A DNA stretch of 27,650 nucleotides from a virus: positions 1-27,650 of IMG/VR virus record IMGVR_UViG_3300032246_001703; one strand, written 5' to 3'. The first letter of the stretch is position 1; each line of letters begins with the position of its first letter. Positions 2,765-27,650 of this stretch are shown in pieces. Under the pieces are notes generated by a model. It was given only the letters and a program-made list of their open reading frames with translations, made no database searches and was not told the origin of the DNA. The translations under genes were made by a program, and so were the position numbers.

Positions 2765-2770
2765 TAAATA
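2763..2770 (+). promoter_or_regulatory. T4-type late promoter upstream of gp48
   Basis: Exact TATAAATA, the T4 late promoter consensus, 60 bp before the gp48 ATG and in the only divergent gap of the window. Transcription would start near 2776 and read the whole rightward baseplate block. No sigma70 -35/-10 pair is visible in this orientation, which suits control by gp55, encoded next door. Confidence 0.72.
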
Positions 2771-8465: not shown

Positions 8466-8468
8466 ATT

Positions 8469-8876
8469 ATGGCTTACGAAGATAAAAATAGCAATAGCAA
8501 TTTAAGACAGGTATTCAAAGGTTTTAGCTCACGAGCGGATCAAAACAATTTTAGATTGTACGATTTTGAATTGATCAAACAGGATCTTATCAATCGACTG
8601 AGTGTACGCAAAGGGGAGCGAGTGGAAAATCCAGAATTTGGAACCATAATCTATGATTGCATATTTGAACCTTTGACTAATTCATTGAAACAAGCCATAG
8701 CGGATGATATCACACAAAATCTCAATGCCGATCCTCGTATCAGCACATCTGATATAATAGTGAGTGAAACCGAAGGTGGTATTAGTATACAAGCTACTAT
8801 AACCTATGTACCTTACAATATTACCGAGAAATTAACATTTTCATTCGACGAAAACTCTCTTTTGCGCCTGTCTTAA
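8469..8876 (+). CDS. gp25: Baseplate wedge subunit gp25-like
   Basis: A 135-residue protein of the gp25 / GpW family of wedge proteins, which with gp6 and gp53 forms the core of the baseplate wedge and contacts the sheath. T4 gp25 has 132 residues. Diagnostic features are FRLYDFELIKQDLINRL (28-44), the RKGERVENPEFGTIIYDCIF segment (47-66) and the family E-P-x triplet, here E67-P68-L69. The T4-type triplet is E-P-R, so the arginine is replaced. A beta C-terminal part follows (SIQATITYVPYNITEKLTFS). Despite old lysozyme-like labels for this family, I see no basis for enzyme activity. It starts 3 bp after gp5, preceded by a GGAGGAGGA sequence. The gap after it holds a late-promoter-like element. 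Confidence 0.9.
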   Translation: MAYEDKNSNSNLRQVFKGFSSRADQNNFRLYDFELIKQDLINRLSVRKGERVENPEFGTIIYDCIFEPLTNSLKQAIADDITQNLNADPRISTSDIIVSETEGGISIQATITYVPYNITEKLTFSFDENSLLRLS

Positions 8877-8896
8877 TCTACGCACTTAATAATATC

Positions 8897-8904
8897 CATA
8901 AATA
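8897..8904 (+). promoter_or_regulatory. Late-promoter variant CATAAATA upstream of gp6
   Basis: CATAAATA differs from the T4 late consensus TATAAATA at one base and lies in the 43-bp gap between gp25 and gp6, 15 bp before the gp6 ATG. A transcript would start near 8910 with a leader of about 10 bases; no Shine-Dalgarno is seen before gp6. It could be a secondary late start for gp6 and the giant gene. Confidence 0.4.
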
Positions 8905-8919
8905 TCCGTGTATTAAACT

Positions 8920-11900: not shown

Positions 11901-12399
11901 AAAATACAAAATATTATTTGGTTCTAGAGCAGAAGAACAATTTCAAGCTACATTTAAAGTGGTAAAAAATTCTTTAACCAATGTTACAAATGCAGTAATC
12001 AAAACTCGAGTTATACAGGCTATAAATGAATTTTTTGCTCTAAATAATTTTGACTTTGGAGATACTTTTTATTTTACAGAATTAGCCACTTACATACACA
12101 ACGAATTAGCACCAGATCTATTAACAGTGGTCATAGTGCCTAATCAACACGAACAGTCATTTGGATCATTATTCCAAATTAGTGGTGCTGCAGATGAGAT
12201 TTTTATCAGTGGAGCGACCGTGGATGATGTTGTGATCATTGATGCTATAGGTGCCAATCAGTTGGCAGCCAGCGGCACAGTTGTAACCAGTACTACTGGA
12301 ACAACTACCAGCAATAGGTCAACATCAGCAGTATCATCGGTCACTACAGGAAAAGCTGGATCAAGATCCAACACAGGCAGTAGCGGAACGGGATACTAA
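8920..12399 (+). CDS. gp6: Baseplate wedge subunit gp6-like, enlarged
   Basis: A 1159-residue wedge protein; T4 gp6 has 660. gp6 dimers link neighbouring wedges into the inner baseplate ring. The N-terminus is typical: YDFETLRRTMIAYLRENYPD (30-49), FNDFVESSEYIALIDLIAYI, then LNARENFLETAARRNSILRL. A GDGNFSNIPSGRFRVYYRTS segment (about 345-365) matches the gp6 / baseplate J-like core. The C-terminal core ends with FALNNFDFGDTFYFTELATY and LLTVVIVPNQHEQSFGSLFQ. The extra length is mainly in the middle, roughly residues 560-1000, which is rich in Asp, Thr and Tyr and looks like inserted beta domains. The last 45 residues are almost only Ser, Thr, Gly, Ala and Val. The start ATG is the first after the CATAAATA element. 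The next gene begins 2 bases after the stop codon. Confidence 0.88.
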   Translation: MATTDRQNRLLVAEDWRKIYTSFQQADFKSYDFETLRRTMIAYLRENYPDDFNDFVESSEYIALIDLIAYIAQSLSFRVDLNARENFLETAARRNSILRLARLINYNAKRNLPATGLLKFTSISTTQDVRDSSGNSLANLTISWNDPTNANSREQFINILNAATVSGQKFGKPRESNNIGGINTETYTVNSNNTDVPMFTFTRGVSGIARNFEIVPATISNSESIYEQSPIPGTGFSYLYRNDGAGDSSPNTGFFVLLKQGSLANYEFSITQPTTNYIQSINVNNINNTDVWLYKLDDFGQIEKAWTKVPDLSGNNVIYNSLSSDVRDIYNVVTKNNDAIDLVFGDGNFSNIPSGRFRVYYRTSANSNFSIQPADMQGISFGIAYTAANGSQQTLTITASLQQSIYNAAATESNDSIKTKAPQVYYSQNRMITAEDYNVVPLSASQEIIKIKSVNRSASGISRSKEIIDPTGAYSNVSVFADDGILYREEVSPAFTFTFTNRNEILDVINRLVEPKLTKSYSRQFYYLKYGSKDLSTLAANWVSTTTGTNANTGYFTAGGPLAVGDFATSNLKYAIPGSIIKFTSPDSREFLNGKLVTAGTGLAQDRQWSKIAAVVGDGANNGAGNLETGVGPITLNDTVPADAVLSSVIPKFATVFDTALKIDLQDRIEVYEEFGLRYDEENSEWKVITAANLDYSEEFSLMDAGDTTNSNLDASWWFKFTNDGNTYTVTYRALDYIFESVGDNKFHFDTEERIYDYTTGRSVKDTVRILKSNTVPSTGLGIGYPIDWQIVDTVEEADGYQDNRKVKVGFYDSDDDGVVDNPDIFDIVIEPDTNITTKFVFFEKYISYDNIERYRPYSATNFVVAATESAITLPGAYENGQLFYFYTDDIVKIYDSETITLTTTTDYYARRGRSDIEFHYRHNAGQGTRIDPSQTNIIDIYMLERSYDQLYRTWLAEGGEEPQSSTSDQLRISYSGVLNPLKGLSDQIVYHPVKYKILFGSRAEEQFQATFKVVKNSLTNVTNAVIKTRVIQAINEFFALNNFDFGDTFYFTELATYIHNELAPDLLTVVIVPNQHEQSFGSLFQISGAADEIFISGATVDDVVIIDAIGANQLAASGTVVTSTTGTTTSNRSTSAVSSVTTGKAGSRSNTGSSGTGY

Positions 12400-12401
12400 A
12401 A

Positions 12402-15400
12402 ATGGCTGACGCACCTATTAATAGTCAATCCAATTATGAGGTTGTAACAGATTCTCAAGGCACTGTACTTCGAAGATCCATAGCTCATCTACCATCTTTT
12501 TATAGAACAGATAATAATCATAGATTTTTAACCAGCACACTGGATCAATTAATACAACCAGGCAGATTAAAAAGATTAGATGGTTATATCGGTAGACAAT
12601 ATTCTTATACTAGATTGCCTTCCGATAGTTATATTGAAGCAACCAGCGAAGACAGAACAAATTATCAATTAGAACCTGCTGTAACATATACAGATAAAGA
12701 TACATCATCGGTCAATCCAGAAGATCAAGTTAAATTTACTGCAACCTATGATGATTATATTAATCAAATAAAATTCTTTGGGGGAAATGTTGAAAATCAT
12801 GATAGATTAAACAAAGAAAAAGTTTATTCATGGAATCCAGCAATAGACTTTGATAAATTGATCAATTATAGAGAATATTATTGGTTACCCGAAGGACCAG
12901 ATCCGATATTGGTTTCTAATAATGGCACAAATACAGTGACTGAAATAAAAGTAGATCGTATAGGTAATTCTGCTTATACATTCAGCACCTATAAAAATTT
13001 AGAAAATCCTACAATAACTTTGTATAGAGGTAATACTTACAAATTTGTAATTAACGCACAAGGTCATCCTTTCTACATAATGACCGAACCGTTCACAACA
13101 GGTATAGCCGAAGATGGCAGCACATCAGTGATATATTCTTCTGGAGTATCGGGCAATGGCACAGAAATTGGAACTTTAAATTTCACAATACCTTCAGATG
13201 CTCCTGATATATTATATTATCAGTGCGGTAATCATCAAGCAATGCAGGGTATTTTTACAATCAAAACCATCACTGCTACCACAAAAATAGATGTAGAACA
13301 CGAGATAGTAGGTGCTAAAAATTATACTTTAGCCACAGGAATAAAATTGAGCAATGGTATGAAATTAAGATTTGATTCAAATACTGTTTCTTCGTCTTTT
13401 AATAATAAACAATTTTATGTAGAAGGTGTTGGAAGTTCTATCACTTTAACTGATACTGCTCGATTGATAACTCCAGAATCTTATTCTGTAGAAACCACAG
13501 AATTATATGATACAGTTTCATATGATAGCAGACCATATGCAATCAGTTTTTATAGACCCGAAACACCAGATTATATCACAATCAAAAGAGACAGTCCAGA
13601 TAACAATGCATGGAGTAGATATAACCGATGGTTTCATAAATCAGTAATAAAAACATCAGACGATGTTAATGGCAATATTACCGCTTTACTAGAAACAGCC
13701 AGAGCGAAAAGACCCATAGTAGAATTTGATTCAGGCATACAATTATATGATCATGGCACCGAAGGATTAAACTCTGTGGCCTTGATTGATACAGTGACCA
13801 CAGATGTGTTCTCCTCAGTGGTTAATTCCTCGGGATATATTGTGGACGGTATTTCTTTAGCACATGGCATGAGAGTATTATTCACAGCAGACACCGATTC
13901 ACTAGTTAAAAATAGAATTTATAAAGTAAATTTTGTCACAGTGGGAGGTAACTCAGTAATAAATCTTACTCAAGAACCAGATGGCATACCTCAAGATGGT
14001 CAGACAGTTTATGCAGAATTAGGAGCAAACTACCAAGGAAAAACTTTTTATTTTAAACAATCTGATAATATATGGACACAAGGACAGATCAAAACTGCTC
14101 TAAATCAACAACCTTTGTTCTCGTTAGAAGACGACAATCATGTAAAATTTAGTGATCAAACAGTGTATGAGAATTCTTCTTTTACAGGTGCTGCTGTTTT
14201 TGAATATAAAACTTCAGAAACTTCTCCTGTGGATACTGTGTTAGGATTAAGAGTAAAATATAATACCATTAATAATGTGGGAGATATTATTTTTACTTCT
14301 GATCTTGGTTCAGATTCATTCACTTATAAGAGTGGAGAAAAAGTTCTTTCAAAGAGTTTTACAACTGGCCACGTACATTATATTACTGGTAGAGATACCA
14401 ATATTCCTAGAACTTCGTGGATAGAAAGAGCCGAAGAGAGTAAACAGAGAGTAATAAGAACATTCATAGTAGAAGCTGGAGAATTAAGATTATTTCCTAT
14501 AGATGTATTTGCCAACAGTGCTGGTCTACAGGATTTAGATGTTCAAGTGGATGTTAATCATACAACACAGAATTTAAACATTGATTATGTACTGGTAAAT
14601 GGAACCACTAACAAATATGTAAAATTTTTATATGATTTAGCAGTCAATGACATAGTAAAAATACAAGTTCACAGCTCTGTTAAAAAATTAACAGGCAAAG
14701 GATTGTATGAAGTACCAGAAAATTTAGGAGTTAATCCATTCAATGAGCAATTAACAGATTTTACATTTGGTCAAATATTAAATCACGTACACGATATTAA
14801 TGAAAAAAATATTGAATTAACAGGAGATACACCAGGCAATAGTAATTTAAGAGATCTTCCTGATGTAAGAACCAAGGGTGGAACTATATTACAACATTCA
14901 GCACCGTTGCCACCAGCAATGTTTTTATTAATAGATCAAAATGCCAATGCAATATCGGCTATAGAATATTGTTCTTTAGAATATCAAAAATTTAAAGAAG
15001 GATTTTTATCAAATATCTCTAATGGAAGTACGTATGAGAGTAATGTTGCTACTGCAGTAGATGAGATAATAAAATCTATGATAGGAGATAAGGGAATTAG
15101 TTTTCCATTCTTCTATGAAGATATGATAGGATATGGAGAAAAAGTCAGCACAAGAACATACACAGTACAAGACAGTGCAGAGACCGAATATACCATAGAC
15201 AATCAGTTTGATATAAAAGTCTCTAGCAATAGAGCAGTTTATGTTTATCTTAATGATACGCAACTATTACAAGGTTATGATTATACTTTTAGTGAAACTG
15301 ATGACAGTGTGAACATAACTGCGGCTCTCACAGAAGGAGATATAATTAAAATTAAAGACTACAGCGACACCACAGGTAGTTTTGTACCACCAACACCAAC

Positions 15401-18400
15401 TAAATTAGGAATATATCCTCGATTTAAACCAGAAAAAGTTCTTGATAACACATACGTAGAACCAACCTATGTGATAGTAGGACACGATGGCAGTAAAACT
15501 GTAGCATACGATGATTATAGAGATGATTTATTATTAGAATTAGAACGAAGAATTTATAACAATTGCAAGATTGTTTATAATCCAGAATTATTACCAGAAA
15601 CTGAAGTAAGACCTTCAGCATTCCAAACAAGCGAATATTCTATAAACGAAATTAATAATATTTTGAGTTATGATTTCTATTTTTGGGCAGGAAAAAATGC
15701 TGTGGATTATCAAAAGAATAATATCTATAATGAATCTAATCCTTTCACTTTTAATTATAGCAGTAATAAAGATTTTTTAAACGGTGAATATCTACCAGGA
15801 CATTGGAGAGGCATATACAACTATTTCTATGACACAGACCGACCACACACGCATCCTTGGGAAATGTTGGGTTACAGCGAAAAACCATCATGGTGGGAAG
15901 ATACCTATGGTCCAGGACCCTACAGCTCGGGTAACGAATTATTATGGAACGATTTAGCAGCTGGATATGACAACGGATTAGGAGCAGCCAATTCTAGATA
16001 TGCTAGACCAGGATTATTAAATTATCTACCAGTGGATGAGAATGGAAATTTAAAATCACCGATAGAGGCAGGATTGATAGACAACTATGAATCATCAGGT
16101 ATTAATAAAGTATGGAAATTTGGAGATCAAGCACCAGCTGAAACTGCTTGGAGAAGAAGTTCTCAATATCCTTTTGCTGTGATGAGATTGTTAGCATTAA
16201 CAAAACCAGCAAAATTCTTTGGATTATTTTTTGACAACAGTAGATTAGGTTTAAATGCATCAGGAAATGTCATAGATAAAGACACAGATGTAGCACAGAG
16301 TATAAGAACTGCCAAATATCATTTAGAAACAGTAACAGATAGCGAAACAGGAGCAATCATTCGTTATATAACCGGAGGATATCAACCTTTTGTTGTTAAC
16401 TATCTAATTAAAAATGGATTAGATCCAGCAGTATTCTTTTATGATAAAATGAAAAATCTCAATGTGCAATTAGCATATAAATTAGGAGGATTTTCAGATA
16501 AACAAAATTTAAGAGTATTAACAGATAGTGTTAGTCCAGGATCCACATCAGGATCACAATTTATTCCTGATGAAAACTATAAAATTTTATTTAGAATCAG
16601 TAATCCTATTAGAACATTTGAATATTCTGGAGTATTGATAGAATTAAACACAGCTACCACAAATGATGGTAGTACATTAGAAGGTGGTTATAAAGTTGTA
16701 GGTTATAATACAATTAGACCTTACTTCTCAGTTTTAGAACCAATACAGAATGGTAATAGTTATTCCGTTGAAGCAGGTAATGCTCGAGCAATTATCTATA
16801 AAGATTATGCAGATGTAGAAAAAATTGTAACTTATGGCACAGTGTTTAAAGATGTTCAATCAGTGATTAATTTTTTAACAGGATACGGAAAATATTTAGA
16901 ATCACAAGGATTTGTTTTTGATAGATTTACAAAAGAATTACAAGAAGTTGCAAACTGGGATATGTCAGCCAAAGAATTTTTATATTGGACCAGACAAGGA
17001 TGGGCAGCAGGATCTGCTATTACATTAAGTCCAGGAGCAGAAGGATTCCATCTTACAACCAAAGATAGTGTGATAGGAAAATTAAAAAATTTACAAGGAG
17101 AATACACAGTATTAGACTCTTCGGGTAGAACAGTTAATAACAAATCAATTAGTACCAAACGTGTGGGTACTACTTTTGAAATAGTTAGCAAATTTCCAGA
17201 ATCAGGCATATACAATATCTCAATGAATGCTGTACAGAAAGAACACATATTATTATTTGATAATATCACAGTGTTCTCGGACATACTGTTACAATTAACC
17301 ACAGGATTCCGTCAACAAAGATTTCGATTAATCGGATGGAAGACTGGTGACTGGAATGGTGATTATTATTCTCCAGGATTTATATTTGACGAAGCACAAG
17401 TAGCAGCATGGACAGCAAATACTGATTATCAAATCGGTGATACTGTGGAATATAATGCTAAATTTTATACTTCTAAAGTCAATCATAATTCTGGAAGTTC
17501 TTTTGAATCAGCTAAATGGCAAAAAAAATCTCAAAAACCTGCTGCACAATTAATACCTAATTTTGATTATAAAATTTCACAATTTAATGATTTTTACAAT
17601 TTAGAGAGCAACAATTTTGATGAAGCACAACAAAAGTTAGCACAACATCTTACAGGATATCAATCTAGAAGTTATTTAGATAATCTTTTCTTAAACGATG
17701 TTTCTCAATATAAATTTTATCAAGGATTTATTAGAGAAAAGGGTACACTTAATGCTATAAACAAATTAGTCAAAGCCAAGTTTTATGGAGAAGATATCAG
17801 TATCGATCTTTATCCAGAATGGATGATTAAAGTCGGAGAATTTGGAAATACTGAAAGTAAAAAATCTATACAGATTCGTATGTCTGACAACTCATTCACT
17901 AACAATATACAGAGTATAGAGATATTGGACAATTCAACAGATTCTTTAAATTGGGACAAATCAGTTAGAGTGCTTAGTTCAGAATTATACAACAAACCAG
18001 TGGAATATGTTGCTCAAGAAACATTTTCTCTTTATGACTATAATACAGAAGGTACAGATAAAGACACAGTTCAAAAATTTAAAACAGCAGGTTATCCTAG
18101 ATTGCTAGATGTAGACCATACTGCATTTACAACATCGGATCTTCTTAATTTAAATGTGTCAGCAATTACTAAAAATGATCTGGTATGGATAGCAAAAAAA
18201 GACAATAGTGAATGGGACGTGTTAAGATTAACGTCCACTGGATTAAAAATAGCAGGCATGAGACAGATTAATAATGCTACTCAAGTAGAAATATTATTAA
18301 CCGGAAATCACAATTTTATAAAAGGAGATTATTTTACAATATTAAACAGTCAATTTACACCATTGAATGGAGTATATCAAATATACAGCACACCTACCAG

Positions 18401-21400
18401 TTCATCTTTGATATTCAATTACAGCAATTCTAATAGAGTATCCGGCACAGTATTAACTTCAGATCAATCCACAATAAACACCTATGGTAACATTTATAAA
18501 TGGGTTAGTGTGAGAATTTCTAGTATGGATAATGTCAATGATAGAATATCTTACAATGTTTATAGAGATGTTGATACTACAAATTTTGTTAACGGAGATA
18601 GAATATTTGCAGACAATAATACTGAAGGTAAGTGGAGCATATATGAAAAAACTGACCCTTATGCAGTAACAATACTACAATCTCCAGACACAGACAACGA
18701 GCAGGCATTTGGTTATCAAGTAGTGGCTAGAAATGATGGTAGAACTTTAATAGTATCAGCTCCAGACGAGGGACAAGGTCATATACATTTCTTCTATAGA
18801 GCAGAAAATAAACCAGGTAACTTATTCTTCCCTACAGGCAGTTATGAGATGACCGATGGCAACAACGAAACAGCAGGATTAGGGCGAGTTTTAACAATCA
18901 GCACAGATGAAAATTATATTGTGGCAGGAGCACCCTATACAAATACATTAACATCTGATGGCAGCACCAGACACGATAAAGCTGGATTAATAAAGATTTT
19001 TTCTTGGAATTCTGAGGATAAATTTTATTCATTATCACACACCGTGTTACCACTATCAGATGATAGTACCACATTAACAAATTTAAATTATGGATGGGCA
19101 TGTGCTATAGCCGAGCCTTCGGATGCTAGTACAGTATATACAAGACCGAAATTTCTTTTTGCTTCTGCACCAGGTTTAAACAATGATTCTGGTGTGGTTT
19201 ATGTGCATACCTTACAAAAAGATGTAGGCGACAGCACCATCTCTCTTTGGAGACAAGATTCAGCTATATTCAGCAATGAATCAGGCTCAGGCAAAAGATT
19301 TGGACATAGATTAGCAGTCAATGACAATGCAGATATATTGGCTGTGAGCAGCGTTGCTCCAGGCACCGCTGGGCAAGTAGAAATATTTACAAAAAATAGT
19401 GTGAATGATGATGGCAGCAGTATAGAAGACGGCAGTACAAAACATATATTCACTCACAGACAAACACTTAAAGGAGTAAATGCAGATGGCAGTACATTAA
19501 ACACTGCATTTGGTGAGAGTATATCTATGAGCATCGACGGAGAATGGCTTGTAATATCTGCTCCTGGATTTGATAAAGGCGAACAAACAGATGCTGGCAC
19601 AGTTTATGTCTATAAATGGAATGCCGATGGATCAACAAACACCTATACTTTACAACAAACTATTTCAGCACCAGATTCTGCCACAAACATGAGATTTGGT
19701 TCTTCAGTACAAATTAATAGAGCAAATAATAGAATAGTGATAGGAGCTGAAAAATTTGGCAATCAAAGAAGTATGAGTTTCGATAACGGTGCTACCACAT
19801 TTGATATAGGAGACACAAGAATAGTGGATCTTAATATAGGATCCGGCGGTGTTTTTACCGCTACAAAATATGATACAGAATTTGTAATAGATGACAAATT
19901 AGTTACAACCAAAGTTAGCGCCAATGATGATTTTGGTAGAGGTGTTTTTATAACTGATACAACAGTATTTGTTGGAGCTCCTCAGGATGACACAGCAATA
20001 GATGACAGCACATATCGTGTAAATGATGGAACATTAACAATATTTGATCTTAAAGAGAGAGATTCTTATGCTTGGAACGCATTATCAACGGAAACTAATC
20101 TTGTTAATAATAATAGAGCAGATTCTGCTTTTATATTTGATAGTGCAACCAACGAAATAATTGATTATTTAGATTATTATGATCCTATCAAAGGTAGAAT
20201 ATTAGGCATAGCAGATAGAGAAATTAATTATAAAACAGAATGGGATCCTGCTGTTTATAATATAGGAACACAAAATAAAACTGTCAGTGCTAACACAGCA
20301 TGGGGAGAAGAGCATATAGGAGAAGTTTGGTGGGACATGAGTACTGTAAGATGGTTATGGTATGAACAACATGGCACAGAATATAAAACTAAAAATTGGG
20401 GTAATATATTTCCAGGCTCCTCTATAGACATATATGAGTGGGTAGAATCAACTCTATTGCCATCAGAGTGGAATTCTAGAGCTGACACAGTGGTAGGTTT
20501 AGCACAAGGTGTATCAGGCACGCCATTACACACTGACAATACAGTTTTTACAGTAAAACAAAAATACAATTCTAACTCAGATAGTTTTATCAATTACTAT
20601 TATTATTGGGTAAAAAATTCTGTATTTTTACCACCATTAAACAAATCAGTCACACAAAGAAAGAATACTACTGCTTATGTGGCTAACCTAATAGAAAATC
20701 CATTGGGGTCTGGAATAAAATATTATGCTATCACAGGCACAAATTCATTGATAACATTTAATGTTAAAAATAGTTTGAATAACGATAATACAATACTTAA
20801 TGTTAATTTTAAAAATAACGATAATGAATCAGGGTCTCACTCTGTTTGGAAATTAATCAGAGAAGGTGATAAAAATGATCGTCCTAATGAAATGTTGGAA
20901 ACAAAATGGTGGGATAGTCTTATAGGTAAAGACACAGCTGGTAATGAAGTACCAGATGTAAATCTACCTCTTAATCAAAGATATGGAACCAATATAAGAC
21001 CTAGACAGAGCTGGTATGTGGATAGATTTGCTGCATTAAAAGAAATTATAGATTATAGTAATATTGTGTTAAAAGCAAACCAATTAGCCAACAATATCGA
21101 TTATACAAATTTAAATTCTGCCGATCCAGAACCCACAGAAGTGTCAGGAGAATGGGATCGTAGAGTGGAAAGTTATGCAGATTTAACATATATTGATACT
21201 CGAGATATCAGCGGTACAATTAATGTATTAGTAGCCAATGATGAAGAAAATAGCAAAGGTTCGTGGGCTATCTACAATTGGAATCTTACAGAATGGGTTA
21301 GAACCAAAGTACAAACATACAAGACCAGCACTTACTATAGTTTAGCTGATTGGTATGCCGAAGGATACGACACAAATACTGTGATTGATAAACAGGTTAA

Positions 21401-24400
21401 TTATCAGTATGAGGCTGACACAGCAGGTTTAGAAATTGGACAGATTGTAAAAGTATTACGAGCTGACACAGGTGGATGGAAATTATTTGAACAAACCACA
21501 GAAGGATTAAAAAATATTGCCACGCAAAATGGCACAATACAATTGTCCAAAGCTCTATATGATTATACCATTAAGAATACAGGATTTGATGCCGATGATA
21601 CTTTTGACGTTAATTTCTTTGACCAAGAACCCACTATTGAGACTAGAAATATTTTAAAAGCTCTAAGAGATGATATATTTGTAGGTGATCTTGCAATAGA
21701 GTACAATAATATATTTTTTATAGGATTAAGAAAAGTATTAGAAGAGCAATTATACGTAGATTGGTTAAACAAATCTTCATTCATAAATGTAACCAATAAT
21801 TTAAGACCATTAGATCAGCGCAAGACCTATAGAGTGGGTAATGAGAACTTCGTGGAAGATTATATCAATGAAGTCAAACCTTATCATACAAAAATAAGAG
21901 AATACAAATTAGGTTATACCAATACAGAAACACAAGATGGAATCAATGCAGATTTTGATCTTCCAGCGTTCTATGATGGCACTCGTATTAGAAATGTGGA
22001 TACCACAGCAGATGTAGCAGTAATGGCGAGTTATCCTTATCGATTCTGGAGAGACAATTATAAAAAATATGTAGATTCTATTGTGGTAACCAATAGCGGT
22101 AGTGGTTATATCACTGCTCCTACAGTTACATTGGTAGGAGGAACAACCAAATCAGTGGGACCGTTTACAGTGTTAGGCAGAAGTAATAGTGGCACAACAT
22201 CGGGACAATCAGGCTATTTCTATCCATTATACACAGCCAAAGCAGATGCTGATTTAGCAGATAGTCAAGCAGGTGGATTAAGCTCTAGTTCATTATTCAC
22301 ATTTGAAGAATACACAGGCATAGAATTCTATATGCCAAATACAGGACAGAATATCGCTGTTACAGATAGACCGGAAGGATATGAAGTTTATACCACAGCA
22401 GATAATACTCAAGCCACAGCCACAGCAATAATACAGAATGGATCTGTAACAAAAATAAAATTATTAACGCCAGGTAGCAATTACACAGCCACACCAAGAG
22501 TGGTATTAACAGGCGGGGGTGTTGGAGGAGTTACACCAACAGATGCTGCTCGAGCCTATGCTAATTTAAGAAATGATCTTGTGAGAGATATTGCTACAAC
22601 GATTAAATTTGACCGAGTTCAATCCACAGCCACAGTGTTGGATTGGGCAGCAAATACTGCTTATGCTTATAATGATTTAATCAGATATGAAGATGGATTC
22701 TATAAAGTTAATAGTGGTTTTACTAGCACAGAAAATTTTGATGATGGAGTAACATATCTAACAAAATTACGAGGTGACGAGCCTTATATTACTGCTGCTG
22801 AAAGAACACTGGGATTATATGCTCCAGAAGCTGGTATGCCAGGCAATGAATTATCTCAAGTGATGACCGGTGTGGATTATGGTGGAGTTATGGTCACAGG
22901 ACTGGCATTTAGCAGTGGTCAGGGTTGGGATCGATCTCCATGGTATGACAATCCATGGGACACATATGGTTTAAGTCGAGTTAAAACATTCTACGGCGAT
23001 GGCAGCACCACAGCATTTACATTTCCAAGTGCACCAAGTGCAACAGATGTTTATACAGTATACATAAATGGTGTGAGACAAACATCACTGGTGTTCAGAG
23101 GCGATGGATCTACCAAAACATTCACAGTTATACCTGATGATAGTTCAGTGGTCGGTGCTGGAGATGAAATACAATTTATACCGTTCGATGATGACGGAGT
23201 TCTAACACCCACAGATGACAAAACTCTAGATTCATTGATCAGTGGTGGTCTTTTTGGATCAGCAGTAGGAATAGCACCAAGTGACATTGTATTAGAAGGT
23301 GATGGATTCGTAACACCAGAAACCAGCTATGCTCCAGAAGAGAATGTGCCAGGATCTATGTTCGACACTGTGGATATTAAAGTTTACACCACACCAGAAT
23401 CAGGTGTGCCATTTATCATACAGAAAAATTTTATTGGAGATGGTGTTACTGATACATTTGATGTGGGTCAAACACCAGGCACCAAAGCCTCTGTGATAGT
23501 GACTGTAGATGGTGTAACAAAAAATTATCCAAATGAATATTTTTTAGGTGGACCTTATGATAGACAATTAATTTTTGCAAGTGCACCAGCAATCGGTAGC
23601 AAAATATCTATCAAAAGTTTTGCAGTGTCTGGCAGCAATTACATGGTGCTGAACACATTCTGGGGAAATGGATACACAACGTCATTCACAACATCGGCTA
23701 GAGAAACCTTCCAATTAGATAGCTCTCTATCACAGCTCTATGTCACAGTAGATGGACAACCAACCACAGATTACACCACTTCTGTGTCTGGAAAACTAAT
23801 CACAATAAATTTTAACACTGTACCCACAGGAGCGATAGTGATAGCAGCATTCAATCAAGCACCTGGCAGCGGCAGAGCTTACGCTGAAATAAGATCAGAA
23901 GATATCGTCTACGATGGCATAAACAACAGATACATTCTAACATATCCATCTGGATCTATAGGTCCATATTCAGGATTGACTCTATTAGAATTAAATGGCA
24001 AAATATTGCGAGGACCAGACAACACTTATTATGCTGGCGATGGCAGCACTATAAGTTACAACCTAGGCACAGATCCTTCCAACACTGTGACAGCAGCCAA
24101 TCAAGTGGAAGTGTATGTGAACGGTTCTAAAAAATATCTATTCACTGATTACACAGTGAATATTGGCACACAAAAAGTAGAGTTTGTGTCAGCACCCGGT
24201 GCATTGGATGTTATTGCTATATCGGTGTTATTAGATAATCATTATTACAATGAAGGATCAGACGTGATATTGAAACCAACACAAATCTCAGCAGATGGAA
24301 TATCTCTATTAGCAGGCAATACTCTTACTGCAATTACATTTAACAATGCTGTGGGAATGAATCAAAGAAGAGAAACGTTTGCTGGAGCAACATCTGGAGA

Positions 24401-25253
24401 ATTCTATCTACAGAACACACCACTCAACAGTGATTATGTGTTTGTGTGGGTAAATGGAGATTCTTTAACAGCAGGATACAATTTCCTTTTAAACGGAAAC
24501 AAGATAACCATAGGTGGATTAACATTATCACCCACAGACAGAATAGATGTGATGTATTTTGCTGTGGAGAGTGCTACTAACGCCACAGGATTCCGCATAT
24601 TCAAAGATATGTTGAATAGAACTTTCTTCAAAAGAATCAGTGCTAACAATACCACAACATTGGCTGCAGCACTGGCAGAAGATGCTACAGCAATCACAGT
24701 TGCAGATGGCAGTGTATTGGCATCTCCTCCAGGTGGTTCAGTGCCAGCAGTTATATTCATAGACAAAGAAAGAATTGAATATTTCATTAAATCGGGCAGC
24801 ACTCTATCTCAATTGAGAAGAGGCACACTAGGAACAGGTATAAGAACACATGCAGCAGGCACACAGGTAGTGGATGCTTCAGGTTCTCAAACTGTGCCTT
24901 ACGCAGAAACAGTTTACACAAAAACATCTATGGGAGATGGTAGCACTAATATATTCCCTACCACAATTGCGGCAGCCACACCATACGAATTAGATGTGTT
25001 TGTGGGAGGTCGAAGATTGCCATATATGAGTGAAGATGGCAGCACTGTTAACTATACAGTGGATGGCAGCACTGCAAATGTGGTACTCGCTGATACACCA
25101 CCAGCAGATGTGCAAGTAAAAATCGTACAAAAACGTGGAGTAGTATGGTATACACCAGGTGTAGGCACTGCAGCTGATGGTAAAGGACTACAAAAATCAA
25201 CAACTAACCAAGCAAAATTCATAGCAGGAGAACCAACAAATGTACCTGAATAA
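12402..25253 (+). CDS. Giant multidomain virion protein in the gene 7 position
   Basis: One uninterrupted 4283-codon gene, almost half of the window, directly after gp6 where T4 has gene 7 (wedge protein, 1032 residues). Assignment to the wedge or peripheral baseplate is by position; I see no decisive match to gp7. Visible parts in order: N-terminus with LPSFYRTDNNHRFLTSTLDQ; cupredoxin-like domain (about 201-290); long beta-rich stretch; aromatic-rich block (1126-1192); CBM-like motif (1667-1712); seven FG-GAP blades (2103-2550); a Trp-rich segment with GEVWWDMSTVRWLWYEQH (about 2640); EVKPYHTKIREY (3157-3168); GSGY-type repeats (about 3227 and 3355); a second CBM-like motif (3413-3456); and GDGST-type repeats (3530-4252) enclosing a small beta domain (4096-4160). 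No signal peptide, membrane segment, protease or intein is seen. The modules suggest contact with cell surface glycans or host-range display. A CGGGA precedes the ATG. Confidence 0.8.
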   Translation: MADAPINSQSNYEVVTDSQGTVLRRSIAHLPSFYRTDNNHRFLTSTLDQLIQPGRLKRLDGYIGRQYSYTRLPSDSYIEATSEDRTNYQLEPAVTYTDKDTSSVNPEDQVKFTATYDDYINQIKFFGGNVENHDRLNKEKVYSWNPAIDFDKLINYREYYWLPEGPDPILVSNNGTNTVTEIKVDRIGNSAYTFSTYKNLENPTITLYRGNTYKFVINAQGHPFYIMTEPFTTGIAEDGSTSVIYSSGVSGNGTEIGTLNFTIPSDAPDILYYQCGNHQAMQGIFTIKTITATTKIDVEHEIVGAKNYTLATGIKLSNGMKLRFDSNTVSSSFNNKQFYVEGVGSSITLTDTARLITPESYSVETTELYDTVSYDSRPYAISFYRPETPDYITIKRDSPDNNAWSRYNRWFHKSVIKTSDDVNGNITALLETARAKRPIVEFDSGIQLYDHGTEGLNSVALIDTVTTDVFSSVVNSSGYIVDGISLAHGMRVLFTADTDSLVKNRIYKVNFVTVGGNSVINLTQEPDGIPQDGQTVYAELGANYQGKTFYFKQSDNIWTQGQIKTALNQQPLFSLEDDNHVKFSDQTVYENSSFTGAAVFEYKTSETSPVDTVLGLRVKYNTINNVGDIIFTSDLGSDSFTYKSGEKVLSKSFTTGHVHYITGRDTNIPRTSWIERAEESKQRVIRTFIVEAGELRLFPIDVFANSAGLQDLDVQVDVNHTTQNLNIDYVLVNGTTNKYVKFLYDLAVNDIVKIQVHSSVKKLTGKGLYEVPENLGVNPFNEQLTDFTFGQILNHVHDINEKNIELTGDTPGNSNLRDLPDVRTKGGTILQHSAPLPPAMFLLIDQNANAISAIEYCSLEYQKFKEGFLSNISNGSTYESNVATAVDEIIKSMIGDKGISFPFFYEDMIGYGEKVSTRTYTVQDSAETEYTIDNQFDIKVSSNRAVYVYLNDTQLLQGYDYTFSETDDSVNITAALTEGDIIKIKDYSDTTGSFVPPTPTKLGIYPRFKPEKVLDNTYVEPTYVIVGHDGSKTVAYDDYRDDLLLELERRIYNNCKIVYNPELLPETEVRPSAFQTSEYSINEINNILSYDFYFWAGKNAVDYQKNNIYNESNPFTFNYSSNKDFLNGEYLPGHWRGIYNYFYDTDRPHTHPWEMLGYSEKPSWWEDTYGPGPYSSGNELLWNDLAAGYDNGLGAANSRYARPGLLNYLPVDENGNLKSPIEAGLIDNYESSGINKVWKFGDQAPAETAWRRSSQYPFAVMRLLALTKPAKFFGLFFDNSRLGLNASGNVIDKDTDVAQSIRTAKYHLETVTDSETGAIIRYITGGYQPFVVNYLIKNGLDPAVFFYDKMKNLNVQLAYKLGGFSDKQNLRVLTDSVSPGSTSGSQFIPDENYKILFRISNPIRTFEYSGVLIELNTATTNDGSTLEGGYKVVGYNTIRPYFSVLEPIQNGNSYSVEAGNARAIIYKDYADVEKIVTYGTVFKDVQSVINFLTGYGKYLESQGFVFDRFTKELQEVANWDMSAKEFLYWTRQGWAAGSAITLSPGAEGFHLTTKDSVIGKLKNLQGEYTVLDSSGRTVNNKSISTKRVGTTFEIVSKFPESGIYNISMNAVQKEHILLFDNITVFSDILLQLTTGFRQQRFRLIGWKTGDWNGDYYSPGFIFDEAQVAAWTANTDYQIGDTVEYNAKFYTSKVNHNSGSSFESAKWQKKSQKPAAQLIPNFDYKISQFNDFYNLESNNFDEAQQKLAQHLTGYQSRSYLDNLFLNDVSQYKFYQGFIREKGTLNAINKLVKAKFYGEDISIDLYPEWMIKVGEFGNTESKKSIQIRMSDNSFTNNIQSIEILDNSTDSLNWDKSVRVLSSELYNKPVEYVAQETFSLYDYNTEGTDKDTVQKFKTAGYPRLLDVDHTAFTTSDLLNLNVSAITKNDLVWIAKKDNSEWDVLRLTSTGLKIAGMRQINNATQVEILLTGNHNFIKGDYFTILNSQFTPLNGVYQIYSTPTSSSLIFNYSNSNRVSGTVLTSDQSTINTYGNIYKWVSVRISSMDNVNDRISYNVYRDVDTTNFVNGDRIFADNNTEGKWSIYEKTDPYAVTILQSPDTDNEQAFGYQVVARNDGRTLIVSAPDEGQGHIHFFYRAENKPGNLFFPTGSYEMTDGNNETAGLGRVLTISTDENYIVAGAPYTNTLTSDGSTRHDKAGLIKIFSWNSEDKFYSLSHTVLPLSDDSTTLTNLNYGWACAIAEPSDASTVYTRPKFLFASAPGLNNDSGVVYVHTLQKDVGDSTISLWRQDSAIFSNESGSGKRFGHRLAVNDNADILAVSSVAPGTAGQVEIFTKNSVNDDGSSIEDGSTKHIFTHRQTLKGVNADGSTLNTAFGESISMSIDGEWLVISAPGFDKGEQTDAGTVYVYKWNADGSTNTYTLQQTISAPDSATNMRFGSSVQINRANNRIVIGAEKFGNQRSMSFDNGATTFDIGDTRIVDLNIGSGGVFTATKYDTEFVIDDKLVTTKVSANDDFGRGVFITDTTVFVGAPQDDTAIDDSTYRVNDGTLTIFDLKERDSYAWNALSTETNLVNNNRADSAFIFDSATNEIIDYLDYYDPIKGRILGIADREINYKTEWDPAVYNIGTQNKTVSANTAWGEEHIGEVWWDMSTVRWLWYEQHGTEYKTKNWGNIFPGSSIDIYEWVESTLLPSEWNSRADTVVGLAQGVSGTPLHTDNTVFTVKQKYNSNSDSFINYYYYWVKNSVFLPPLNKSVTQRKNTTAYVANLIENPLGSGIKYYAITGTNSLITFNVKNSLNNDNTILNVNFKNNDNESGSHSVWKLIREGDKNDRPNEMLETKWWDSLIGKDTAGNEVPDVNLPLNQRYGTNIRPRQSWYVDRFAALKEIIDYSNIVLKANQLANNIDYTNLNSADPEPTEVSGEWDRRVESYADLTYIDTRDISGTINVLVANDEENSKGSWAIYNWNLTEWVRTKVQTYKTSTYYSLADWYAEGYDTNTVIDKQVNYQYEADTAGLEIGQIVKVLRADTGGWKLFEQTTEGLKNIATQNGTIQLSKALYDYTIKNTGFDADDTFDVNFFDQEPTIETRNILKALRDDIFVGDLAIEYNNIFFIGLRKVLEEQLYVDWLNKSSFINVTNNLRPLDQRKTYRVGNENFVEDYINEVKPYHTKIREYKLGYTNTETQDGINADFDLPAFYDGTRIRNVDTTADVAVMASYPYRFWRDNYKKYVDSIVVTNSGSGYITAPTVTLVGGTTKSVGPFTVLGRSNSGTTSGQSGYFYPLYTAKADADLADSQAGGLSSSSLFTFEEYTGIEFYMPNTGQNIAVTDRPEGYEVYTTADNTQATATAIIQNGSVTKIKLLTPGSNYTATPRVVLTGGGVGGVTPTDAARAYANLRNDLVRDIATTIKFDRVQSTATVLDWAANTAYAYNDLIRYEDGFYKVNSGFTSTENFDDGVTYLTKLRGDEPYITAAERTLGLYAPEAGMPGNELSQVMTGVDYGGVMVTGLAFSSGQGWDRSPWYDNPWDTYGLSRVKTFYGDGSTTAFTFPSAPSATDVYTVYINGVRQTSLVFRGDGSTKTFTVIPDDSSVVGAGDEIQFIPFDDDGVLTPTDDKTLDSLISGGLFGSAVGIAPSDIVLEGDGFVTPETSYAPEENVPGSMFDTVDIKVYTTPESGVPFIIQKNFIGDGVTDTFDVGQTPGTKASVIVTVDGVTKNYPNEYFLGGPYDRQLIFASAPAIGSKISIKSFAVSGSNYMVLNTFWGNGYTTSFTTSARETFQLDSSLSQLYVTVDGQPTTDYTTSVSGKLITINFNTVPTGAIVIAAFNQAPGSGRAYAEIRSEDIVYDGINNRYILTYPSGSIGPYSGLTLLELNGKILRGPDNTYYAGDGSTISYNLGTDPSNTVTAANQVEVYVNGSKKYLFTDYTVNIGTQKVEFVSAPGALDVIAISVLLDNHYYNEGSDVILKPTQISADGISLLAGNTLTAITFNNAVGMNQRRETFAGATSGEFYLQNTPLNSDYVFVWVNGDSLTAGYNFLLNGNKITIGGLTLSPTDRIDVMYFAVESATNATGFRIFKDMLNRTFFKRISANNTTTLAAALAEDATAITVADGSVLASPPGGSVPAVIFIDKERIEYFIKSGSTLSQLRRGTLGTGIRTHAAGTQVVDASGSQTVPYAETVYTKTSMGDGSTNIFPTTIAAATPYELDVFVGGRRLPYMSEDGSTVNYTVDGSTANVVLADTPPADVQVKIVQKRGVVWYTPGVGTAADGKGLQKSTTNQAKFIAGEPTNVPE
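13002..13271 (+). other. Cupredoxin-like domain inside the giant protein
   Basis: Residues about 201-290. The segment reads as a cupredoxin: strand ITLYRGNTYKFVINAQGHPF with His222, a Gly/Ser/Thr-rich loop, strand GTLNFTIPSDAPDILYY, then YYQCGNHQAMQGIFTI with Cys275, His278 and Met281. The His...Cys-x2-His-x2-Met pattern is the type-1 copper ligand set with amicyanin-like spacing. Whether copper is bound in the virion is inference. Confidence 0.65.
15777..15977 (+). other. Aromatic-rich block in the giant protein
   Basis: Residues 1126-1192 are dense in Trp, Tyr, Phe, Pro and Gly: LPGHWRGIYNYFYDTDRPHT, PWEMLGYSEKPSWWEDTYGP and GNELLWNDLAAGYDNG. The composition differs from the Thr/Asn/Asp-rich beta sequence around it and suggests a compact conserved core rather than a spacer. 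No known family is recognised. Confidence 0.5.
17400..17537 (+). other. Carbohydrate-binding-module-like motif 1 (CBM5/12 type)
   Basis: Residues 1667-1712. The pattern W-x3-T-x-Y-x2-G-D-x-V-x-Y-x3-F-Y-x10-15-W (Trp1670, then TDYQIGDTVEYNAKFYTSKV, ending at Trp1706) matches the short three-stranded chitin-binding type 3 / CBM5/12 fold. It would place exposed aromatics for binding a polysaccharide. The fold match is reasonable; the ligand is unknown. Confidence 0.5.
18708..20051 (+). other. Seven-bladed FG-GAP-type beta-propeller in the giant protein
   Basis: Residues 2103-2550 hold seven repeats, each with an FG-like start, a short strand, and a (V/I)(V/I)xGAP-like end. They start at F2103 (FGYQVVARNDGRTLIVSAP), about G2159 (GLGRVLTISTDENYIVAGAP), Y2230, F2300 (FGHRLAVND), F2370 (FGESISMSIDGEWLVISAP), F2432 (FGSSVQINRANNRIVIGAE) and F2511 (FGRGVFITDTTVFVGAP). 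Repeats are 56-79 residues apart and often end in strands such as GTVYVYKWN. Seven blades of about 64 residues is the size of the integrin-alpha propeller. The full calcium loop DxDxDG is not conserved. Confidence 0.75.
22080..22518 (+). repeat. Two GSGY-type protein repeats
   Basis: TNSGSGYITAPTVTLVGG (from about 22086) and TPGSNYTATPRVVLTGGG (from about 22467) share the pattern x-G-S-x-Y-x-(A/T)-(A/T)-P-x-V-x-L-x-G-G, about 125 residues apart. Such GSGYTxxPxV motifs recur in phage tail proteins as small beta elements. The DNA of the two copies has diverged, so this is an old duplication. Confidence 0.6.
22638..22769 (+). other. Carbohydrate-binding-module-like motif 2 (CBM5/12 type)
   Basis: Residues 3413-3456: Trp3415, then AANTAYAYNDLIRYEDGFYK and a Thr/Asn-rich end with TYLTKL. 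It aligns with motif 1 (WTANTDYQIGDTVEYNAKFY) over the W-x-A-N-T-x-Y and Y-x3-F-Y positions. It lacks the final Trp and has N-D in place of G-D, so it is weaker than motif 1. Confidence 0.42.
22989..25160 (+). repeat. GDGST-type repeat series at the C-terminus of the giant protein
   Basis: Seven units start with a G-(D/N/A)-G-x-T-like turn after an aromatic or short residue: FYGDGSTTAF (G3532), FRGDGSTKTF (G3567), FIGDGVTDTF (G3679), FWGNGYTTSF (G3755), YAGDGSTISY (G3879), FAGATSGEFY (G3995, degenerate) and SMGDGSTNIF (G4178). Most continue with a strand containing V-x-V-(N/D)-G, such as YTVYINGVRQ or VEVYVNGSKK, then an F-x-S-A-P-like end. Spacing is irregular (35-183 residues) because other modules are inserted. 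This type of repeat is common in virion proteins of marine T4-like phages. Confidence 0.7.
24687..24881 (+). other. Small beta domain of phage virion type near the giant protein C-terminus
   Basis: Residues 4096-4160: TAITVADGSVL, then PAVIFIDKERIEYFIKSG, LSQLRRGTLGTGIRTHAAGT and VVDAS. The pattern ITVxDxS...P...IxIDxExIxY...G..L..(T/L)RG..GT....HxAGTxV is a widespread small module in phage capsid and tail proteins. It sits between the last two GDGST-type units. Confidence 0.5.
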
Positions 25254-25926
25254 ATACAACGCAATGACAGAACAAGAGAATAACAAAAATACTCAGCAAG
25301 AGCAGAACAATAAAAAGCCACAGGATCATTCCGGCATCAAAATGGAAGGACATATTAAGATATGGGATCCAAGCACAGGCGAAGTTATTGTGGACAAAAG
25401 AAATGCTATTCACTATGAGAATATGAGTATAGCACTCGCTAACAGTCTTGCAAACAAGAGCACAGGATTTATTCATGAGATGGCATTTGGTAATGGTGGA
25501 ACCACAGTGGATCCCACAGGTATTATCACATATCTAACACCCAACACCACAGGAACCAATGCATCACTATACAATCAAACCTATTACAAAGTAGTGGATG
25601 ATAACTCAGCTACTAACAAAGACACTACCAGAAACAAAATGGAGATTCGTCACACTGCTGGTAACAAGTACACTGATATAGTGGTAACTTGTACATTGGA
25701 TTACGGAGAACCCACAGGTCAGGAAGCATTTGACAACACAACCAACTTCAATGGCGATTTCGTATTTGACGAATTAGGATTAAAATCTTGGGAAGGCACA
25801 GAGAATGGATCATCTAATAAACTATTGACTCATGTGATATTCCATCCTGTACAAAAAAGTTTAAACAGACTGATACAAATTGATTATACTCTAAGGATAC
25901 AATCGTTAACAACATTTACGGAATAA
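25240..25926 (+). CDS. Virion structural protein, conserved in marine T4-like phages
   Basis: A 228-residue protein of unknown role. It has a polar N-terminus rich in Gln, Asn and Lys (about residues 9-30), then GHIKIWDPSTGEVIVDKRNA (36-55), IHYENMSIALANSLANKSTG, a glycine-containing FIHEMAFGNGGTTVDPTG, and IVVTCTLDYGEPTGQEAFDN. I recognise the pattern as a small structural protein seen next to baseplate and fibre genes in marine myoviruses, but no T4 homologue. The chosen ATG overlaps the giant gene by 14 bp and has GGAG (25227-25230) 9 bases upstream. An ATG at 25264 (MTEQEN) would remove the overlap but has no Shine-Dalgarno. A likely role is a peripheral baseplate or fibre-attachment subunit; that is inference from position. 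Confidence 0.72.
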   Translation: MYLNKYNAMTEQENNKNTQQEQNNKKPQDHSGIKMEGHIKIWDPSTGEVIVDKRNAIHYENMSIALANSLANKSTGFIHEMAFGNGGTTVDPTGIITYLTPNTTGTNASLYNQTYYKVVDDNSATNKDTTRNKMEIRHTAGNKYTDIVVTCTLDYGEPTGQEAFDNTTNFNGDFVFDELGLKSWEGTENGSSNKLLTHVIFHPVQKSLNRLIQIDYTLRIQSLTTFTE

Positions 25927-25931
25927 AATAA

Positions 25932-27146
25932 ATGGCTTATACAGTTAACAAATCTAATACTGCAGCGTCGCCCAATCAGTACACAGTACAAGATTCTATT
26001 TTGAATACTCAAACTGATATATCGTTTGTGGGCAAAGGTTATGCTGGATACGGAGAAATAATTGCTGAAAATTTTCTACACTTACTAGAAAATTTTTCTA
26101 ACACTTCAGCACCTGGAAAACCAATCAAAGGTCAGTTATGGTACGATGAGTCATCATCAAAAATAAAAGTTTATACAGGATCCTCTTTTCAACCAGTGGG
26201 AGGAGCATCGTATTCATCAGTATCACCATCAGGATTGAACGCAGGTGACCTTTGGATTGACAGTGATACTCAACAATTATATTTTAATAACGGAGCCACA
26301 AACATATTAGTAGGACCTCCAGCATCATCTGGTACAAAAAACGGTTTTGAATACAGCACCATATCAGATAGCAATGATATAGAAAGAAACATCACTAGAG
26401 TTTATAATAATGACGTACAGGTAGCTATAATCAGTGATACTAATTTTACTCCAAAAGTATCCATACCTGGTTTTGCTACTATTACCAAAGGTATAAATTT
26501 ATCCACAGTAATTTCAGGAAACAGATTTACAGGCACAGCCACCAACTCAGATGCTCTAGGAGGAGAATCTGCGGCATCATATCTTAGAATAGATGGAGCA
26601 TCAACTAGCTCTACCACAAGATCTCTTTCAATTTTAAATGATGTAGGATTAACTATCGGTCAAGACAGTGATTTAAGAATATTGTTAGATCCATCAGGAG
26701 TACATTATCAGAACAATACTGTGGACACAGATTTAATATTCCGAGTGAACGATGGTGGTGTTGTTACCACAGTTTTAACTATGAAAGGATCTACTTCTAG
26801 AATAGGTATTGGAACCAGTACACCCACAACCAAATTAGATGTAGTGGGCACGATCAATGCCACAGCATTCACAGGACCATTAACAGGAGCAGTAAATGCC
26901 AATGCTGTAACAGTGATCGAAGGTGGAGATGGGTTAAAAATAATAAATGGAAGTTATGGAGCAACATTAAATTCTGCTTCTCTAACTGCTAATCGTACAT
27001 TGACTTTACCAAATAGGTCAGGCACAGTGATAACTTCGGCAGATACAGGCACAGTGAGTGGTGCGATGTTAAAAGATTCGGTAGTCCTTCAAATATTAGA
27101 TTCAACTGGCACAGTATTAAAAACCATATACGGCGCTGGTTCTTAA
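25932..27146 (+). CDS. Tail-fibre-like virion protein
   Basis: A 404-residue protein. The N-terminus (about 35-130) has GKGYAGYGEIIAENFLHLLE followed by two copies of a small motif: GQLWYDESSSKIKVYTGSSF and GDLWIDSDTQQLYFNN, each ending in VG. The middle has GTATNSDALGGESAASYLR (about 199-217), the A-T-N-A-D-x-L-G-G-type fibre repeat. Then come GIGTSTPTTKLDVVGTI (about 296-312), the sequence that in many fibres leads into the shaft end, and RTLTLPNRSGTVIT near the C-terminus. The C-terminal chaperone (peptidase S74) domain that often follows such motifs is absent. It is probably a trimeric fibre or fibre-like baseplate appendage, perhaps with roles split between neighbours. It starts 5 bp after the previous gene, with CGGAA 8 bases upstream. 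Confidence 0.75.
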   Translation: MAYTVNKSNTAASPNQYTVQDSILNTQTDISFVGKGYAGYGEIIAENFLHLLENFSNTSAPGKPIKGQLWYDESSSKIKVYTGSSFQPVGGASYSSVSPSGLNAGDLWIDSDTQQLYFNNGATNILVGPPASSGTKNGFEYSTISDSNDIERNITRVYNNDVQVAIISDTNFTPKVSIPGFATITKGINLSTVISGNRFTGTATNSDALGGESAASYLRIDGASTSSTTRSLSILNDVGLTIGQDSDLRILLDPSGVHYQNNTVDTDLIFRVNDGGVVTTVLTMKGSTSRIGIGTSTPTTKLDVVGTINATAFTGPLTGAVNANAVTVIEGGDGLKIINGSYGATLNSASLTANRTLTLPNRSGTVITSADTGTVSGAMLKDSVVLQILDSTGTVLKTIYGAGS

Positions 27147-27147
27147 T

Positions 27148-27168
27148 ATACAATGGAAAATATTGTAT
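27148..27168 (+). repeat. Short inverted repeat before the sigma70 promoter
   Basis: ATACAAT (27148-27154) and ATTGTAT (27162-27168) are exact reverse complements separated by 7 bases. It is too AT-rich to be a strong terminator, but it ends 4 bp before a perfect -35 box. It may be an operator-like site or chance. Confidence 0.3.
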
Positions 27169-27218
27169 TAATTGACAGTGATAACAAATACATTTATAAT
27201 ATTATAGGAAGATTATAA
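27153..27218 (+). CDS. Possible 21-residue mini-ORF
   Basis: An ATG reading frame in the gap between two virion genes, starting MENIVLIDSDNKYIY and ending in IIGRL; its TAA ends one base before the next gene's ATG. It fills almost all of the 73-bp gap in phase. Against it, no Shine-Dalgarno is seen before the ATG, and a perfect sigma70 promoter lies inside it. The product shows a loose resemblance to the end of the preceding protein (LDSTGTVLKTIYGAG against IDSDNKYIYNIIGRL), so it may be a remnant of a duplicated fibre tip. Low confidence that it is expressed. Confidence 0.25.
   Translation: MENIVLIDSDNKYIYNIIGRL
27172..27200 (+). promoter_or_regulatory. Perfect-consensus sigma70 promoter
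   Basis: TTGACA at 27172-27177, a spacer of exactly 17 bp, and TATAAT at 27195-27200: a full match to the bacterial housekeeping consensus in both boxes. It points at the gene starting at 27220. Initiation near 27206-27208 would give a leader of about 13 bases starting in the AGGAAGA Shine-Dalgarno. Confidence 0.72.
27206..27212 (+). promoter_or_regulatory. Ribosome binding site of the last gene
   Basis: AGGAAGA, 7 bases before the ATG at 27220. It supports this start and lies at the predicted 5' end of a transcript from the sigma70 promoter. Confidence 0.6.
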
Positions 27219-27219
27219 A

Positions 27220-27650
27220 ATGGCAATTCGTAGACCTTTATATTACGTTGATGGAAATTTAAGAGAGATGAATGACGAGCAAATTGCAAAAATTAAAGCT
27301 CGAATGTTTTGGTCATATGTTAATAATCCTTCTGTGACACTAACAGTGGTTAATGCAGGAGGCAATTTAGGTACAATAACAGACACAAGATTACAAGCAG
27401 GAGCAGCTAGTACATCAACCACAGGTTTTATAAATGAAGCTACCACAGAAGAACCCAGTATTGTGAATGTAGCCATCTCTAGAATAGAGCAAACAGTGGC
27501 ATCAGATCCAAATCCTGCCACCACAGTCACACAATATCCTGCTTATTACACAGCAACTGGAAACATAAGAGCAATGAATTTACAGGACATGTATGATACT
27601 TTTGCTAAAGATGTGTTCAATGGAGGATGGACAGCAGCAGATGGTTCCAC
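27220..27650 (+). CDS. Virion structural protein of marine T4-like phages (partial)
   Basis: The first 143 residues of a protein that runs off the right edge. It opens MAIRRPLYYVDGNLREMNDE, followed by IAKIKARMFWSYVNNPSVTL, a GGNLGTITDTRLQAGAAS segment, EPSIVNVAISRIEQTVA, and IRAMNLQDMYDTFAKDV. I recognise this as the opening of a small virion protein family common in T4-like cyanophages and related marine phages, without a T4 homologue or known function. It is preceded by AGGAAGA and by a perfect sigma70 promoter, which sets it apart from the upstream virion genes and suggests that transcription of the following block can start here with the host sigma factor. The C-terminus is not visible. 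Confidence 0.78.
   Translation, partial: MAIRRPLYYVDGNLREMNDEQIAKIKARMFWSYVNNPSVTLTVVNAGGNLGTITDTRLQAGAASTSTTGFINEATTEEPSIVNVAISRIEQTVASDPNPATTVTQYPAYYTATGNIRAMNLQDMYDTFAKDVFNGGWTAADGS

Follow-up and report, generated by a model that had tools for sequence, protein, structure and literature searches.

A probable host-type promoter in front of gene 10

The gap in front of gene 10 of a T4-like phage fragment holds a perfect sigma70 consensus, TTGACA-17-TATAAT, which is very likely a working host-sigma70 (early-type) promoter serving gene 10 and the gene after it, with late read-through from upstream in addition. Comparison of related sequences establishes that the element exists, is selectively conserved and occurs in two gene-10 clades, that another clade has a late-type promoter in its place, and that both promoter classes occur side by side in these genomes. 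On the same comparisons, gene 10 is probably switched on earlier than the neighbouring virion genes.

The window, as we term the whole stretch of DNA analysed, is a 27,650-base virus record, a fragment of an uncultured marine phage of the T4 superfamily. Its minus strand bears a gp55-like late sigma gene and an SbcD-like gene. Along the plus strand follow virion, baseplate hub/lysozyme, gp25-like and gp6-like genes, a 4283-aa ORF, two more genes and finally the promoter gap, 73 nt (27147–27219) between gene 9 and gene 10. "Host-type" is used here for a match to sigma70 TTGACA-17-TATAAT. The elements that define the setting are:

1765–2694, minus strand: long late-sigma (gp55-like) gene, 309 aa, phrog_12791, by family match
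2763–2770, plus strand: TATAAATA, late-type promoter preceding virion gene 2830–3711
8897–8904, plus strand: CATAAATA, late-type promoter preceding the gp6-like baseplate gene 8920–12399
25249–25256, plus strand: AATAAATA, nearest late-type motif upstream of the promoter (about 2 kb), at the 5' end of gene 25240–25926; invariant in the window, L002 and L004
25932–27146, plus strand: gene 9, virion-structural-like by family match, upstream of the gap
27220–27650, plus strand: first part of gene 10, which continues past the window's end; the L004 copy has 325 aa; uncharacterised family

An earlier sequence-only reading had located the site within a late virion gene block, in one of its few intergenic gaps. 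The upstream genes fit such a block, whereas the downstream gene has no family match; the gap is indeed one of only three in the window of at least 35 nt, the others being 2695–2829 and 8877–8919. The 4283-aa product is encoded by a single ORF of the tail block (12402–25253) that takes up almost half of the window. As to composition, the window and contigs G003, G018 and G023 show strong avoidance of CTTAAG and of AAGCTT, the latter with 0 copies in the window, perhaps as a form of restriction avoidance.

The element is exact and rare

Sequence inspection and a promoter scan give the following features of the gap:

27148–27168, plus strand: weak A+T-rich stem-loop just before the -35, folding no better than shuffles (z about -0.5 to -0.7)
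27153–27171, plus strand: A+T-rich stretch upstream of the -35, putatively UP-element-like from its sequence
27153–27218, plus strand: 21-codon ORF over the promoter, unsupported as a gene
27172–27177, plus strand: -35 hexamer TTGACA; TTGA invariant in all 14 distinct element-bearing gaps
27178–27194, plus strand: 17-nt spacer, constant in length and unconserved in sequence (mean pairwise column identity 0.40 vs 0.80–0.81 in the hexamers)
27195–27200, plus strand: -10 hexamer TATAAT; TA at positions 1–2 and T at position 6 invariant
27206–27208, plus strand: predicted transcription start, from the rule of thumb of 6–8 nt after the -10 hexamer
27206–27211, plus strand: Shine-Dalgarno-like AGGAAG for gene 10, found by eye

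As first described, both hexamers are exact and their 17-bp spacing is optimal (27172–27200, plus strand). The site has the properties of a host sigma70 (RpoD) promoter: hexamers matching at 12/12 positions, a spacer within 16–18 bp and hexamers conserved over the spacer. The accompanying claim that a full match is rare by chance is borne out. Shuffling the window 400 times by dinucleotides gave 0.025 exact matches of 17-nt spacing on average, both strands counted, and at least one in 2.25% of the shuffles; with spacers of 16–18, dinucleotide shuffles give an expectation of 0.06. For a 12/12 match within the 73-nt gap alone, p is about 0.0015 (2000 shuffles). The exact 17-spaced match is present in a single copy in the entire 27,650-base record and is the sole 12/12 site among the 110 promoter-like sites (9/12 or better) that the scan listed for 7651–27650.

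The 26-nt block at 27153–27178 is invariant in the window, L002 and L004 and is the joint longest invariant run of their 5.4-kb three-way alignment, beginning at the ATG of the 21-codon ORF and stopping just past TTGACA. The scan listed no intrinsic terminator between the end of gene 9 and the promoter, Rfam gave no match at E 1 or better in 26900–27650, and megablast of 26400–27650 against phage records returned no match. TTGACA occurs 8 times in the window vs 25.4 expected from dinucleotide shuffles; the idea that the hexamer is avoided was dropped, as a trinucleotide model ranks it only 41 of 180 anagrams.

The junction across relatives

Searches with the upstream gene and with gene 10 yielded at least 195 loci with a gene 10 start and at least 90 distinct upstream sequences. 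From 195 loci, 95 rows were kept in a gene-10 tree, the window's copy being row L001; loci in which the end of the upstream gene was unresolved or gene 10 was shorter than 120 aa were excluded, as were duplicate rows, and L217, which has a stop codon, was removed from the protein alignment. Gaps of useful length are of two main kinds, carrying either the host-type element or a T4-type late motif.

The host-type kind, a TTGA hexamer followed by exactly 17 nt and then TA...T, was found in 14 distinct gaps. Loss of the hexamers in close relatives had been named as an observation that would count against the promoter; instead, both are exact (12/12) in L002, L004 and L043 as in the window, and both recur at 17-bp spacing with one to three mismatches in ten further distinct gaps. 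Five of these match at 11/12 positions (L053, L234, L235, L244, L245), two at 10/12 (L224, L059) and three at 9/12 (L055, L238, L239; shuffle p 0.08–0.26). Host-type gaps make up two separated groups of the tree, S1 with 6 rows (the window group, L053 and L224) and S2 with 8 rows (the L055 group). Every distinct gap of at least 45 nt in the two clades carries the element (14/14, spacer 17 in all). The other 12 members (5 and 7 rows) have gaps of only 0–23 nt, too short for a 29-nt element, and therefore all long-enough gaps in the two clades carry it. Clade S2 is less clean, with the -10 ending 9–13 nt before the ATG in 7 of 8 gaps, which leaves almost no leader.

Across ten representatives, the hexamer columns have a mean pairwise identity of 0.80 vs 0.42 for the other columns, and none of 20,000 random sets of columns reached this value; this excess is partly due to choosing rows by motif, yet no long-gap row of these clades was omitted. 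The element is not essential, because the close relatives L236 and L237 lack the whole gap, the gene 9 stop codon abutting the gene 10 ATG, and L243 has a gap of 3 nt. In L242, a sister of L236 and L237, the two genes are separated by 59 nt that include the element.

Late-type gaps fall mostly (23/25) in a third gene-10 clade, where the motif is TATAAATA, often followed by a GGTAC...GTACC hairpin. L295 was classed as host-type by the automatic rule and left out of the 14, since it has TATAAATA and lacks a proper -10. In the ATAAATA clade (L263, L193, L162 and relatives), a conserved leader hairpin, GGTACTTACT...GTGGTACC, lies 3' of the motif within roughly 80 nt upstream of gene 10, with a z of -2.7 in L193.

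Two promoter classes in the same genomes

The contrast originally drawn with the phage late promoter also holds, as ATAAATA stands before virion genes in this phage group and at the same junction in other phages. The window has four copies (2764, 8313, 8898 and 25250), all on the plus strand and three of them at gene starts, vs 16.9 expected. Relative to a trinucleotide model, ATAAATA is the lowest of its 21 anagrams in 4/4 contigs (the window, G003, G018 and G023); elsewhere it is little or not reduced, with 8 copies vs 7.5 expected in G001, 5 vs 7.7 in G019 and 24 vs 34.1 in G020. Its distances from virion gene 2830 and the gp6-like gene 8920 (59 and 15 nt) are conserved in G003 and G018 and similar in G020 and G019. 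The genes that follow it in G020 include ones with tail-tube, virion-structural and tail-fibre-like matches, two further scanned genes having no match. By these patterns ATAAATA behaves as a late promoter in these phages and is avoided outside such places.

Host-type sites are a recurrent feature of the same group. Among 139 gaps of 35–250 nt in nine related contigs, sites of at least 10/12 number 36 in sense and 8 in antisense orientation vs 4.2 by shuffling, the antisense number being itself somewhat above shuffles, and sites of at least 11/12 number 16 and 2 vs 0.3, counts that are not independent, since the contigs are related, and that include the gene-10 gap itself as 7 of the 36. Such sites also precede an ATPase gene and a cysteine dioxygenase-like gene, and the baseplate-hub-like gene of G020 has both promoter kinds.

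Two further observations concern other genes. The late-sigma gene (1765–2694, minus strand) is preceded at 41 nt by TAGGCA-17-TATAAT, a site that G003 and G018 retain. A gene of about 105 aa has a host-type -10 ending 6 nt before its ATG in six contigs (G020:51328–51648, G019:24783–25100, G018:38424–38744, G001:42226–42543, G023:10765–11079 and G021:1028–1345), an arrangement that suggests a leaderless mRNA.

Alternative readings of the gap

The element could be a late promoter peculiar to this clade, if its long late sigma (309 aa) were to recognise a -35 as well as a -10, which we regard as improbable. The long sigma, at 68–100% identity, is present in 9/9 element-bearing records that yielded the gene (G000, G003, G018, G019, G022, G023, G025, G026 and G042). 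Five records without the element have only a short-sigma match, within residues 163–274; among them G027, G028 and G029 carry ATAAATA at the junction, and G010 and Mosig have a short gap. The element also takes the place of ATAAATA at the gene 10 junction. Five element-bearing records, all fragments, gave no sigma match (G001, G021, G024, G043 and G044), and the long sigma occurs without the element in three records (G020, G034 and G035). The split between long and short sigma is a clade difference and does not alone tell which sigma reads the element. What speaks against a late role is that virion genes of long-sigma contigs are preceded by ATAAATA, which is avoided in the rest of the window, that host-type sites also stand before genes such as the two named above, and that G027, with its short sigma, has six exact TTGACA-17-TATAAT sites. 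The host sigma is thus favoured, because ATAAATA promoters share these genomes and exact host-type sites are present in a short-sigma one. The notion of a new kind of late promoter was dropped, as ATAAATA fills the late role in the same genomes. Nor does the gap resemble a T4-type late promoter, which has NATAAATA at -10 and no -35: there is no ATAAATA in 27147–27219.

Slightly less probable still is that the gap is a small gene, the 21-codon ORF that fills it, with the hexamers serving as its codons for I-D-S and Y-N. This ORF spans 66 of the 73 nt, beginning 6 nt past a stop codon and leaving 1 nt before the following start codon. It is open in the window, L002 and L004, has a shorter version in L043 and gives an NG86 dN/dS of about 0.08 between the window and L002. 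Those three sequences alone could not separate the two readings. However, with the hexamers kept constant, the number of amino-acid differences does not fall below that from random placement (P 0.11–0.33; six pairs from 4 sequences, a comparison of low power), and in L053 the promoter is kept while the sole ORF lies in another phase relative to the hexamers; on these two comparisons the small gene was rejected. Moreover, no Shine-Dalgarno sequence was seen before the ORF, which has no homologue in 50,697 phage records and is present in 3 of 17 related records. Matches of L041 and L042 to a degenerate peptide pattern were due to chance.

Least likely of all is a functionless chance consensus in A+T-rich DNA: sites of 9/12 or better are common (110 found vs 94 by shuffling), but a 12/12 match with a spacer of 17 is expected only 0.025 times per window, and the hexamers and their fixed spacing persist while the spacer sequence diverges.

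Gene 10 and its predicted expression

Among named phages, gene 10 occurs only in Pelagibacter phage Mosig EXVC030M, at 46.5% identity to the part in the window and 39% to the full-length L004 protein. An AlphaFold model of the gene 10 product (L004:5001–5975) is confident, with a pLDDT of 92. Foldseek gave no match to this fold at E 0.001 or better in the PDB or among viral models, a second look returned one structural match (Z 3.4), and family searches found no family match. The late-type promoter of gene 10 in another clade suggests, from sequence, virion-stage expression there.

For a host-sigma70 promoter at this junction, we infer the use of host polymerase, the early timing, the start site and a dual mode of expression as follows. 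Host RNA polymerase with its primary sigma would bind TTGACA-17-TATAAT, aided by the A+T-rich stretch upstream. A start at about 27206–27208 would give a 12–14-nt leader that opens with the Shine-Dalgarno sequence. The resulting short message would cover gene 10 and, to judge from L004, a 162-aa gene, with convergent genes after it. In L004 only these two genes precede the convergent genes, which fits the sequence-only suggestion that a different regulatory block begins here. Gene 10 would be transcribed from the start of infection, independently of the phage late sigma. Read-through from the ATAAATA promoters (25249 and 8897), likely because of the late motif upstream at 25249–25256, would add late transcription, and the gene 10 product would then be available both early and late.

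Discussion

T4 early promoters are of the host sigma70 type with 17-bp spacing, act without phage factors and cluster in early regions. The window's site is of the same type and spacing and instead follows virion genes. The nearest named relatives of the long late sigma are in jumbo phages such as Phosso, PA5oct, Atu_ph07, PBECO4 and GAP32, so that the window resembles T4-superfamily jumbo phages, with GAP32 and PBECO4 among the matches, in having a long late sigma of the same family. A further parallel is the jumbo phage CBB of Pectobacterium, for which the published account describes RpoD-like promoters with an UP-like element, 11 of 18 of them in the putative early region, and a separate ATAAATA before structural genes (PMC5259590). 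The window shares the host-type -35/-10 promoters, the UP-like upstream tracts and the separate ATAAATA; unlike the CBB promoters, its site sits where a structural block ends and has kept its position across two gene clades.

Late promoters are given as TATAAATA for the T4 type and NATAAATA for cyanophages in PMC2984593, which also describes early and late promoters that overlap in RB49 and S-PM2. A T4-type late promoter, with no -35 element, stands at the same junction in another clade and is absent from the window's gap. As in RB49 and S-PM2, host-type and late promoters would serve the same genes, although here the late promoter is about 2 kb upstream and does not overlap. PeSL promoter/stem-loop cassettes of T4-like phages (Arbiol 2010 and Comeau 2014, as mentioned in PMC4503421), in which a stem-loop terminator is joined to an early promoter, may offer another likeness: here, too, an intergenic gap holds an early-type promoter that is there or missing as a whole (L242 vs L237), with a stem-loop before the -35 in some copies (z -3.3 in L053, whereas the window's 27148–27168 folds no better than shuffles). 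No evidence of shuffled flanking genes, another trait of such cassettes, was seen at the present site.

Host-type promoters as such are already known; what draws interest is the exchange of one promoter class for another at a single junction. Tentatively, promoter class may be exchangeable at this junction, late (gp55-type) in one clade and host-sigma in two, the latter having been gained twice or kept through gene replacement, and a gene at the end of the tail block may have moved to early or continuous expression, a scenario that is possible but rather doubtful. Prediction of middle and late promoters was reported to have failed in an earlier pelagimyophage study (PMC7029224). The present comparison shows a division of genes between host-type and late promoters in uncultured marine T4-like phages, and the junction provides a natural comparison of a late-type promoter, a host-type promoter and no promoter before one gene family. 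Early or continuous expression, if true, would fit a role of gene 10 besides, or before, virion assembly, and if timing differs among these arrangements, it would help to tell what gene 10 is for.
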